From: Sulfurimonas sp. HSL3-7
GTDB taxonomy: Bacteria > Campylobacterota > Campylobacteria > Campylobacterales > Sulfurimonadaceae
Length of the DNA stretch: 64,000 nucleotides
Assembly: GCF_039645985.1 (NCBI RefSeq)
Contig: NZ_CP147919.1
Location: 248,001 to 312,000, forward strand
Direction: 5' to 3'
A program made the position numbers and the translations under genes. Shown here in pieces: positions 9,038-48,943 of this stretch. Below the pieces are notes generated by a model. It was not told where the DNA came from. It searched no databases and saw only the letters and a program-made list of their open reading frames with translations. How positions within the stretch are numbered: position 1 is the first letter of the stretch; every line of letters starts with the position of its first letter.

Positions 9038-9919
9038 ATGAACGGTATTGAGTTCACTGCCATAATCACATTTGCACTGCTCGGTTCGATCGGCCACTGC
9101 ATCGGTATGTGCGGTGGTTTCATTGTGACCTATACGACAGCCAAGATCAAACCGGAACAAGACAAGTTTACCCAATCGACCTATCATCTTTTTTACAATT
9201 TCGGACGTGTCGTAACCTACACAGTCCTGGGTGCTCTTTTTGGTTATTTCGGTTCGCTCTGGGACATTTCGCCTTTGGCAAGGGCCATTATGTTCGCTGT
9301 TGCCGGTGTTATGATGATCCTGATGGGATTCTCATTTGCCGGAAAGCTGAAGTTTCTGACATCGATCGAATACCCGATTACAAGACAACCCTGGTTTAAA
9401 AAGATATTTACCTCCCAGCTGACATCGGCTAAACCCAGCAGTTTCTTTACTCTGGGACTGTTGAACGGCCTGTTTCCATGCGGGCTTGTTTATACGATGC
9501 TTGTGACGGCAACGACCACGCAGTCGGCACTGTGGGGTGCGATCGTTATGGCGATATTCGGCATCTTTACGATCCCTGCGCTCTTCAGTTTCGCTTTTGC
9601 CGTCGGTCTATTCTCACAAACACGTTTTCGTTCGTTAATGATACAGTTCGCCGCGATCACTATTATCGTCTTCGGCGGATGGACGCTGATGAAAGCCTAT
9701 ATGCAGTTTGACTACTGGAACAACACCCCTCGCGAGCAGCAGCTCAAGGATGCGCAAGAGATGGGTAAGTGCGGTGCCGGCAAGTGCGGTGCCGGCAAGT
9801 GCGGCATGGGCAAATGCGGTGCAAAACCGGTAGAAAACAATGCGCCTGAATCGCTTAAGGATGACGTGATGAAATGTGGTGCCGGCAAGTGCGGCAGCGG
9901 TAAATGCGGCGGAAATTGA
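9038..9919 (+). CDS. SafE/TauE-like membrane protein with cysteine-rich KCG-repeat tail
   Basis: 293 residues. The first ~240 match the paralogue at 1333: GHCIGMCGGF in the first membrane segment, NGLFPCGLVYTM in the fourth, about six membrane segments in all. The last ~50 residues are different: four KCG units spaced by five residues, a linker AKPVENNAPESLKDD, then three more, ending KCGGN. All seven tail cysteines are in KCG, giving a soluble, probably metal-binding extension. The same unit makes up the secreted peptide at 48117. The gene lies directly upstream of the cbb3 oxidase cluster and under the motif promoter at 8965, so a role in copper supply or storage for the oxidase is a reasonable inference. 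The tail is encoded by 15-nt near-repeats, prone to length change. Confidence 0.82.
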   Translation: MNGIEFTAIITFALLGSIGHCIGMCGGFIVTYTTAKIKPEQDKFTQSTYHLFYNFGRVVTYTVLGALFGYFGSLWDISPLARAIMFAVAGVMMILMGFSFAGKLKFLTSIEYPITRQPWFKKIFTSQLTSAKPSSFFTLGLLNGLFPCGLVYTMLVTATTTQSALWGAIVMAIFGIFTIPALFSFAFAVGLFSQTRFRSLMIQFAAITIIVFGGWTLMKAYMQFDYWNNTPREQQLKDAQEMGKCGAGKCGAGKCGMGKCGAKPVENNAPESLKDDVMKCGAGKCGSGKCGGN

Positions 9920-44243: not shown

Positions 44244-44956
44244 TTTGTCTTCTTCTTTGTTATTCCGAATTTTTGGGCACGCACGGTCACTTCGGTCACG
44301 GCAGAACCGGGACGCATCTGCAGGATATCTTCAACGATATCAGCGATGTCCGTAGCAAGCAGTTTCTCATCCTCTTTCTCCGAGACCCCGAAACGCAGAT
44401 CGTCGAAAAAGGCGGTGTCCGTCATGTCCGGGTTGATGGTGAGGACATTCACTCCCTCTTTGCGCACCTCTTCAAAGAGGCTCTGCCCGAAGGCGCGAAG
44501 ACCGCTCTTGGTGGCACTGTAGAGGGCGGAAAACCTGGACGACCGCAGGGCTTCAATGGAGGTGATGTTGACGATATTGCCCTGGTTGGCCTTGAGTGTG
44601 CGAAGCAGCAGGTTGCTCAGCAGGATCGGCGCTTCGAGGTTGATGCGCATCATCGCCGTGATGGTCTCTGTCGAGAGCTCTTCGTGGGGCTCGAACCGTC
44701 CGAACCCGGCGGCATTGACAAGCAGGGTGAGCGCGCTTTTGTCCAGAGCAGCGACCGTCTGTTCGATCGCTTCGCTGTCTCGGAGGTCACACGGCAGCGG
44801 TGTAAAGTGCGGGTGCTCCAAGGTGGTCTGCGTGACGTTTCTGCTGAGGCCGTAGACCCTGAAGCCCATCTCCAGCAGCCTCTCGGCGATCGCTTTTCCG
44901 ATACCCGAACTGACCCCTGTCACCAGTGCGCTCTGCATAGTTGTATTTTCCATCAT
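44240..44956 (-). CDS. Short-chain dehydrogenase/reductase (SDR)
   Basis: 238 residues. ALVTGVSSGIGKAIAERLL is the TGxxxGxG cofactor motif, LVNAAGF the NAAG motif, and the catalytic Ser/Tyr/Lys are in NITSIEAL and YSATKSGLRAFG. A classical SDR with NAD(P)H; the substrate is unknown. The start ATG at 44956 overlaps the SPL-like gene stop (ATGA). Third gene in a minus-strand operon of four. Confidence 0.9.
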   Translation of the reverse strand: MMENTTMQSALVTGVSSGIGKAIAERLLEMGFRVYGLSRNVTQTTLEHPHFTPLPCDLRDSEAIEQTVAALDKSALTLLVNAAGFGRFEPHEELSTETITAMMRINLEAPILLSNLLLRTLKANQGNIVNITSIEALRSSRFSALYSATKSGLRAFGQSLFEEVRKEGVNVLTINPDMTDTAFFDDLRFGVSEKEDEKLLATDIADIVEDILQMRPGSAVTEVTVRAQKFGITKKKTK

Positions 44957-45966
44957 ATCTCCCAGGTCCGTATCTTCTCTTTCGGAAAATAGGCGGTGAC
45001 CTTGGCAACCATTGTCGCCAAAATCTTCTGTTCAACCGCTTTAGAGTAGCTTGCCACCCCGTCATTGACCTCGTAGGGGTAGAAGGCGATGTCGCTCGAA
45101 TGCATCTTTTTGATCCGTTTGAGGTAGGTCGAACTCATCCGAAAACTGCCTAGAGTGAGCTGGTGGATCTTTTCAGCATCGAGTGTCGCGAAGATCTCAT
45201 CGACAAATGGCAGGTAGAGCGCTTCGAAATCGTCGTTGTAGATGACCGGGTCGATGCAGAGGCGTACCTGCCAACCTGCCTGCAGAGCCTCTGCTATCGC
45301 TTTGAGACGCTGCCTTAGCGACGGGGTCTTATGTTCGTACCTGTCAATGATCACCTGCGGCGAAAGTGTCCAGGCCAGTACGATCTGCGCCGATGGCTCT
45401 AAAGAGCGCAGCGGCTTGAAGTTGGCGCTCTTGGTGCGGATCTCAAGGTTGAGATTCGGTTCCCTGCCTGCAAATACGATCCATGCCGCCGAGTGGCCGC
45501 TGAGCGATTCGGTGGCGAGGGTGTCGGTGTCGTAAGAGATGGCGACCAGGGTCGGTTTGTCAAGGTGCGGTTTCACCGCCTCGAAGTACGCCTCGATATT
45601 GACAAAGAGGACGTTGTTGGCGGAGTTGTACATTCCCTGAAGATAGCAGTAGTCGCAGTCGTAGAGACAGCCGAGAAGCGTCGGGGTATAGAAGAAGTTC
45701 TCGAACTCGAACCCGTCGCTGTAGTAGGAACCTTCATAGAGATAGGGGGCTTCGCGTCTGGCCAGGATGAGGTTCTTGCTGCGGCTCTGGATGCGGAAGT
45801 CCTGGTTGGGACGGTTAAAGACATCCTTGTAGTGGTCAATCTCGATGATATGCGAACGGGGAAAGCGTGCCATGATCCTCTTCGTCTGCGGGTGATCGAT
45901 GACGGCACGTTCCACATAGAGGTGGGAAAAGAGTTCACACGGTGAGTGCAGTAATGCAGCGTTCAT
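44953..45966 (-). CDS. Spore photoproduct lyase-like radical SAM protein
   Basis: 337 residues. C100-x3-C104-x2-C107 in LGCLYDCDYCYLQG is the radical SAM cluster motif, and the surrounding pattern (ARREAPYLYEGSYYSDGFEFENFF; SYDTDTLATES; YEVNDGVASYS) fits the SPL family (PF-SplB-like), known for repair of a UV thymine dimer in spores. Campylobacterota do not sporulate, so this is either a repair enzyme of vegetative cells or acts on another substrate. Its start overlaps the end of the nucleosidase gene by 32 nt. Confidence 0.85.
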   Translation of the reverse strand: MNAALLHSPCELFSHLYVERAVIDHPQTKRIMARFPRSHIIEIDHYKDVFNRPNQDFRIQSRSKNLILARREAPYLYEGSYYSDGFEFENFFYTPTLLGCLYDCDYCYLQGMYNSANNVLFVNIEAYFEAVKPHLDKPTLVAISYDTDTLATESLSGHSAAWIVFAGREPNLNLEIRTKSANFKPLRSLEPSAQIVLAWTLSPQVIIDRYEHKTPSLRQRLKAIAEALQAGWQVRLCIDPVIYNDDFEALYLPFVDEIFATLDAEKIHQLTLGSFRMSSTYLKRIKKMHSSDIAFYPYEVNDGVASYSKAVEQKILATMVAKVTAYFPKEKIRTWEI

Positions 45967-48040: not shown

Positions 48041-48080
48041 ACCCATGTTACAGACAGCAGTTGTTATTTGGACTATACTG
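48041..48080 (+). promoter_or_regulatory. Promoter region of the KCG peptide gene with a partial match to the SafE motif
   Basis: CACCCATGTTACA (48041-48053) agrees with the core CAC-NN-ATGT-N-ACA of the motifs at 1277-1289 and 8969-8981. A weak -10-like TGTTAT (48063-48068) has the same 9-nt spacing; a better box TATACT lies at 48075-48080. The match is partial, so shared regulation is only suggested. Confidence 0.4.
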
Positions 48081-48116: not shown

Positions 48117-48380
48117 ATGAAAAAGATGAGTTTATTGGCACTGTTTATCGGTGCGGCGTTATTCATTGGTTTAGGTACGACGTCTGCATGGGCGCAAGAG
48201 GGCAAATGCGGTACATCGAAACCGGTAGAAGGTAAATGCGGTGCTGAGAAAAAAGCGGCAAAATGCGGTGCTGAGAAAAAAGCAGAAAAGTGCGGTGCTG
48301 AGAAAAAAGCAGAAAAGTGCGGTGCTGAGAAAACTGTCGAAAAAGTAGGCAAATGCGGCGCAGGCAAGTGCGGTAAATAA
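48117..48380 (+). CDS. Secreted KCG-repeat peptide (HvfA/bufferin-like metallophore precursor candidate)
   Basis: 87 residues: a signal peptide ending TSAWA-Q (about 26), then seven KCG units, the first two in EGKCG context, separated by AEKKAE-type spacers. All seven cysteines are in KCG. EGKCG repeats after a signal peptide are the mark of HvfA-type peptides, whose cysteines are changed to oxazolone/thioamide copper ligands by an MNIO enzyme (DUF692) with a partner. No DUF692 or DUF2063-like gene is in the window, so modification would need enzymes encoded elsewhere. Four near-identical 27-nt units (48237-48344) encode the middle. A DoxX gene follows on the same strand, as in the hvf operon. 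The same KCG unit forms the tail of the SafE-like protein at 9038. Confidence 0.75.
   Translation: MKKMSLLALFIGAALFIGLGTTSAWAQEGKCGTSKPVEGKCGAEKKAAKCGAEKKAEKCGAEKKAEKCGAEKTVEKVGKCGAGKCGK
48237..48344 (+). repeat. Four 27-nt tandem units inside the KCG peptide gene
   Basis: Units start TGCGGTGCTGAGAAAA and encode CGAEKKAEK-like blocks; units 2 and 3 are nearly identical, unit 4 has diverged. The period is a multiple of three, so copy change alters the number of metal-binding units without a frameshift. Confidence 0.85.
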
Positions 48381-48499
48381 CAGCTTTACATTGTCAAGGT
48401 CGGTAACGGCCTTGATTGCGACCGCTAGTGTAGTCATAACTGGTTTACATCAGTTATGAGTGCACTAACCAAAACCGGAGCTAGTAAAAAGGAGATGTT

Positions 48500-48943
48500 A
48501 TGCAATGCCAAATTACGAAACTCTGCAAGTTGGTCGAACCCCTTCTGGAGAAGCTTCAAAGTGTATCACTGCTTTTTTTACGTCTGATACTGGCGTACGG
48601 CTTTTACGAGCCGGCAAAAATGAAGTGGAGTGATATTGGTTCCGTCGCGGAGTGGTTTGGTTCGATGGGGCTTCCATTGCCGACACTGCAGGCTTATTTA
48701 GCCGCTTCCACTGAAGCTCTGGGTGTGTTGTTATTGACCCTCGGGCTGGCGACACGCCTTATCTCGATTCCGCTGATCATTGTGATGATTGTCGCGATCG
48801 TAACGGTGCACCTACCGCACGGTTTCAGTTCAGGCGATAACGGGTTTGAGATTCCGCTTTACTATATGCTGATGCTCTTTGTCCTTGTCACTCACGGAGC
48901 AGGAAAGTTTTCGGTCGATCATTTTCTATACAAAGAAAAGTAA
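48500..48943 (+). CDS. DoxX family membrane protein
   Basis: 147 residues, four hydrophobic helices. LFLRLILAYGFYEPAKMKW, GLPLPTLQAYLAASTEALGVLLLTLGLATRL and IPLYYMLMLFVLVTHGAGKFSVD fit DoxX/SURF4-like proteins. Some are quinone-linked, others belong to bufferin-type metallophore operons. AAGGAG precedes the ATG. The gap of 119 nt from the KCG peptide gene holds no obvious promoter, so the two may form one unit. Confidence 0.82.
   Translation: MQCQITKLCKLVEPLLEKLQSVSLLFLRLILAYGFYEPAKMKWSDIGSVAEWFGSMGLPLPTLQAYLAASTEALGVLLLTLGLATRLISIPLIIVMIVAIVTVHLPHGFSSGDNGFEIPLYYMLMLFVLVTHGAGKFSVDHFLYKEK

Follow-up and report, generated by a model that had tools for sequence, protein, structure and literature searches.

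A KCG-repeat peptide beside HvfX in an MNIO-free Sulfurimonas genome, and its co-occurrence with a GMC flavoprotein and small subunit

KCG metallophore peptides have so far been described as MNIO products; what does such a peptide do in a genome in which no MNIO is found? The question is raised by a 64,000-nucleotide stretch of Sulfurimonas sp. HSL3-7 DNA (the window; positions 248,001 to 312,000 of NZ_CP147919.1). A sequence-only reading had described a signal peptide followed by seven KCG units, two of them as EGKCG, with all cysteines in this motif and a DoxX gene next to it. These features are borne out by the 87 amino acids encoded by the open reading frame 48117–48380 (plus strand), which possess a hydrophobic N-terminus and in which 7/7 cysteines fall within the KCG units, and by the adjoining frame 48500–48943. 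The locus is organized as follows:

48051–48079, plus strand: sigma-70-like promoter match preceding the peptide gene, weak (9/12 consensus bases)
48117–48380, plus strand: KCG peptide gene, HvfA-like, with predicted Sec-type export (NF050137, genus orthologues, family profile)
48117–48194, plus strand: signal peptide or leader, MKKMSLLALFIGAALFIGLGTTSAWA, of the conserved LLLGAALFtGLG type
48381–48499, plus strand: intergenic stretch with two strong hairpins (RNA fold)
48500–48943, plus strand: DoxX-family membrane protein, HvfX (PF07681, NF050144)

The assignment of the pair as an HvfA-type peptide and an HvfX-type DoxX protein stood up to profile searches, with both partners scoring above the cut-offs of NCBIfam models. 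The peptide scores 26.8 bits against NF050137, the HvfA-family motif model (cut-off 19.5); the downstream product scores 134.4 bits against NF050144, the HvfX model (cut-off 80), and 66.9 bits (2.6e-18) against PF07681. A search of the PDB returned no match for HvfX. The leader, called as a signal peptide by inspection and by conservation of the N-terminus in homologues, terminates in an AxA-type site between SAWA and QEG. Sigma-70-like matches upstream of the peptide are no more numerous than in shuffled sequences. The 119-nt gap separating the peptide gene from hvfX is predicted to fold at −44.3 kcal/mol (z = −5.0), a stability equaled by 0/200 shuffles.

In its Sec-type signal, repeated KCG units and downstream HvfX/DoxX, the locus resembles those of HvfA/oxazolin and the captophorins (EGKCG precursors, MNIO HvfB, partner HvfC), a class characterized by 5-thiooxazole groups on Cys. 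Unlike these, the peptide falls short of the full-length HvfA equivalog model NF050188 (13.3 bits, cut-off 95), and the genome, which is complete as a single contig of 2,872,400 bases, holds neither modification enzyme: no match to the MNIO (PF05114) or to the DUF2063 partner (PF09836) was found anywhere in its 2.87 Mb. The earlier claim that both are missing thus extends from the window to the whole genome, and MNIO is likewise absent from 8/8 sampled genomes of the genus (the present one and seven congeners). The same PF05114 profile recovers full-length MNIOs, with E-values of about 1e-72 to 1e-96, from 16/200 genomes of the order and from 15/180 genomes of the family (Sulfurimonadaceae, Campylobacterota). 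A spore-photoproduct-lyase-like radical SAM protein is encoded at 44953–45966 (minus strand; PF20903, 60.7 bits); as a candidate maturase it was rejected, its gene not being a recurrent neighbor in relatives.

The peptide is conserved. Orthologues occur in three other genomes of the genus (L346, L347, L350), in two of which HvfX was seen adjoining. In the same-genus orthologues of G231, G217 and G224, the KCG units persist amid changing spacers, and the codons show synonymous TGC/TGT and GGC/GGT differences. A 14-row profile of the window-type peptide (E ≤ 1e-6) matched 102/180 family genomes, the profile also taking in weakly scoring MNIO precursors and certain KCG proteins of other kinds; 90/102 of the matched genomes are without MNIO. 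The retention of KCG in genus orthologues through synonymous change, together with the family-wide matches, argues that the peptide is not a chance reading frame. The sequence-only reading had asked whether the KCG unit is conserved and whether related genomes carry the peptide-DoxX pair: the unit is kept in orthologues and relatives, and the peptide stands beside HvfX in relatives. Its label of an orphan peptide does not hold, since the pair with HvfX is conserved and, as described below, a second enzyme is a strong genomic companion. The bufferins of the Buf_EGKCG type are similar in motif and in DoxX association; in their survey only 67/2583 Buf_EGKCG genomes had no MNIO, with the supposition that the MNIO-less peptides need no modification or are now non-functional (PMC12452194). 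Unlike in that survey, the MNIO-free state is the rule here (90/102 family genomes).

The leader of this peptide type has the consensus MkKlnltALLLGAALFtGLG. Over the first 24 residues, mean pairwise identity is 57% among 29 HvfX/GMC-type KCG peptides and 34% in a control of only seven CusA-linked KCG lipoproteins, with shuffled leaders giving 22% and 17%, respectively. Such conservation suggests that something reads the leader; recent common descent may be an alternative source of conserved signal sequences. Leaders of MNIO-operon precursors from the same order share 17–38% identity with that of the window, a further difference from HvfA and the captophorins, and two MNIO genomes, G339 and G357, encode the window-type peptide about 2.5 kb away from the MNIO precursor. 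Judging from these different leaders and separate genes, the window peptide seems to belong to a type that MNIO does not use as substrate, even in genomes that have the enzyme.

Clustering of HvfX neighbors brought out a pair that recurs, in which a GMC flavoprotein is joined by a small subunit of the Gluconate_2-dh3 type (DH3), and the gene order peptide-HvfX-DH3-GMC was observed directly. The Sulfurimonas indica locus L284 unites the peptide, HvfX, a Glu_synthase-like protein, DH3 and GMC. A PF13618 search, independent of the peptide, placed DH3 in 44/200 order genomes; G188 and G199, with much higher DH3 scores, were left out, and for one of these the neighboring GMC was inspected and belongs to another subfamily. 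Within the order sample, DH3 is present in 31/34 MNIO-free KCG genomes. Across the 180 family genomes, 91 carry both peptide and DH3, 11 the peptide only, 6 DH3 only and 72 neither (OR 99), and the corresponding counts for the 165 MNIO-free genomes are 84, 6, 6 and 69 (OR 161), the relatedness of the genomes inflating these association statistics and their Fisher p-values. Among the matches listed for genus g2, 57 genomes have both, 4 the peptide only and 1 DH3 only. DH3 lies within 6 kb of the peptide (≤6 kb) in 41/91 genomes that possess both; the MNIO-free genomes with the peptide and without DH3 are G220, G224, G286, G314, G338 and G344, of which G286 is a single contig. This near one-to-one co-occurrence of the peptide with a GMC flavoprotein and PF13618 small subunit is new here; the companion is not mentioned for bufferins in the available portion of PMC12452194, and literature queries for GMC with DoxX, or Sulfurimonas with DUF692, returned nothing relevant.

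The association may reach further, with the proviso that titles of metagenome-assembled genomes (MAGs) can be wrong: a Planctomycetia MAG (L307) carries KCG peptide-DH3-GMC, and an unclassified MAG not titled Campylobacterota (L308) carries peptide-HvfX-DH3-GMC. In mainly gammaproteobacterial loci (L309–L312, L314, L324), the GMC/DH3 pair is preceded by a thioredoxin-fold protein. The KCG peptide was not found at the gammaproteobacterial GMC/DH3 loci examined, which implies some role for the enzyme beyond the peptide. In the genome of the window itself, GMC/DH3 is unlinked to the peptide, at L178:7474-9665 (G000:C1:1441473-1443664), about 1.15 Mb away.

The L178 genes match both GMC domains (PF05199, PF00732) and the small subunit (PF13618). 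By sequence, the nearest solved relatives are FAD-glucose dehydrogenase and fructose dehydrogenase (PDB 6a2u, 7w2j), and the companion enzyme is like these in its GMC family, its small-subunit pairing and three cysteines aligned with the 3Fe-4S region; the FAD motif is kept as well. Unlike the glucose dehydrogenase, it has Leu in place of His476 and Pro in place of Asn519, both invariant in 13/13 aligned members. We take His476 and Asn519 to be the catalytic residues of FAD-glucose dehydrogenase, which fits the titles of fructose-enzyme PDB mutants. With both positions replaced, the clade does not appear to be a canonical sugar dehydrogenase. The DH3 proteins start with RR motifs, as Tat signals typically do, which would place the action of the enzyme after export, in contrast to that of MNIO. 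GMC/DH3 is thus likely to be a flavoprotein of the periplasm whose substrate is not a standard one.

The KCG motif is not confined to the peptide. The search for other KCG peptides proposed from the sequence alone proved productive, as the genome encodes three further KCG-bearing proteins (window 9038-9919, L078:8125-8442 and L327:7475-7840). The first of these lies within the window:

9038–9919, plus strand: membrane protein of the DsbD_2 family (PF13386, 168 bits) that ends in a tail of seven KCG units

This gene lies upstream of a cbb3-oxidase-like (ccoNOQP-like) block, a gene order repeated in G102; the ccoNOQP naming is our assumption from gene sizes, gene order and general knowledge. The L327 gene (G000:C1:521474-521839) encodes a KCG lipoprotein and overlaps the terminal part of the gene for a CusA-type RND pump, a protein of the AcrB family that resembles CusA. 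KCG tails are also present in G102 and same-genus G217 (L359), homologues of the lipoprotein occur in several relatives (L348, L353, L354, L358), and cytochrome-c-like proteins with C-terminal KCG tails are encoded at L083:6658-7236, L355:7344-7937 and L357:3349-3975. In G002, a Lys/Cys-rich protein of KKCDKSKKCDYK repeats (L081:6457-6927) adjoins a ten-KCG peptide. Copper binding by MNIO-modified KCG peptides is published (PMC13097082, PMC13419390), and the unmodified KCG unit may bind copper too.

Taken together, a model for the locus emerges to which we assign a probability of roughly 0.55: peptide and HvfX would constitute half of an MNIO-independent, periplasmic KCG copper-handling system, with GMC/DH3 as its redox partner. 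The peptide would be exported to the periplasm, where its cysteine thiols, or a derivative of these, would bind Cu(I), and HvfX would work with it at the inner membrane. The periplasmic target of GMC/DH3 would be the peptide, the peptide's thiols or its copper, acted on either through a lasting cysteine modification or through mere redox cycling of thiol or copper. The link to copper is drawn from the other KCG proteins, whose genes overlap that of a CusA-type pump or precede the cbb3-oxidase-like block. The distance between GMC/DH3 and the peptide in the window's own genome counts against this model, as do the six MNIO-free genomes that have the peptide and no DH3 and the gammaproteobacterial GMC/DH3 loci.

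A rival arrangement, to which we give somewhat less than even odds, is that the peptide is an unmodified Cu(I)-thiolate buffer in which KCG is the metal-binding unit, with GMC/DH3 co-regulated for some other job. In its favor, MNIO-free genomes also have KCG tails attached to folded proteins (the DsbD_2 protein, the CusA-linked lipoprotein and the cytochrome-like L083 and L357 proteins), and a single shared leader-dependent enzyme is unlikely to serve proteins so varied. However, the K-C-G context, with 139/149 cysteines preceded by K and 128/149 followed by G, is as strict as that of MNIO substrates and exceeds the apparent need of plain thiolate binding. The conserved leader also speaks against such a buffer, which moreover leaves the near one-to-one link to GMC/DH3 unexplained.

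In a further reading, in our estimation unlikely, GMC/DH3 could be an unrecognized maturase, probably oxygen-independent, that oxidizes the KCG cysteines of exported peptides in place of MNIO, as its counterpart in low-oxygen bacteria. This would account for the near one-to-one presence with the peptide in MNIO-free genomes, and for a clade that has lost the canonical sugar-oxidation residues yet keeps the FAD motif and the three cysteines at the 3Fe-4S positions. HvfB reactions were carried out with O2 (PMC13419390), so a different route would suit low-oxygen bacteria. MNIO and DH3 did not overlap in the order sample (0/200 genomes with both), from which we predicted mutual exclusion; the denser family sample refuted it, with DH3 in 7/15 MNIO genomes where 8.1 were expected by chance. 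GMC/DH3 is therefore not a simple substitute for MNIO, and its Tat-like DH3 signal, placing its action after export, further sets it apart from an MNIO-type maturase. One Sulfurimonas MAG (L279) bears HvfX, a Glu_synthase-like protein, a KCG peptide, MNIO, DUF2063 and DH3/GMC together; such side-by-side presence of both enzymes is likewise at odds with replacement of one by the other.

One option of the sequence-only reading, modification in trans by an MNIO, can be discarded for this genome, barring an enzyme so diverged that PF05114 misses it. That a diverged MNIO elsewhere in the genome acts on the peptide seems to us very improbable: very distant members can escape profile searches, and two candidates passed a loose first look, but these received no PF05114 score, the profile that is so strong elsewhere in the order and family finds nothing here, and the DUF2063 partner is absent as well.

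In an HvfX tree, sequences from MNIO genomes and GMC genomes are intermixed (7–8 changes), and a tree-based test could draw on just 3 independent pairs with support, too few for significance, which nearly always pointed the expected way (p=0.25). The genome carries a second HvfX (L079:7675-8112), followed by a Glu_synthase-domain protein; this pair (L079:5918-8112 together) recurs beside HvfX in numerous relatives, whether or not they have MNIO. The Glu_synthase-domain protein was dropped as a peptide partner, because it also occurs beside an MNIO operon (L214) and in this genome adjoins the second HvfX only. The window's HvfX groups with that of the MNIO-bearing relative G170 in a supported four-member set, as it might if the peptide were a decaying remnant of an MNIO operon after loss of the enzyme. 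We regard this reading as barely tenable, given that orthologues retain the KCG units and show synonymous codon changes, that the type occurs in 102/180 family genomes, 90 of them without MNIO, and that it stands separate from the MNIO precursor in G339 and G357.

For these genomes, family-model names of the form “oxazolone/thioamide-modified RiPP” overstate what is known. With about nine in ten family carriers being MNIO-free and the peptide tracking a flavoenzyme of unusual catalytic residues, either the KCG motif works unmodified or a second chemistry exists.
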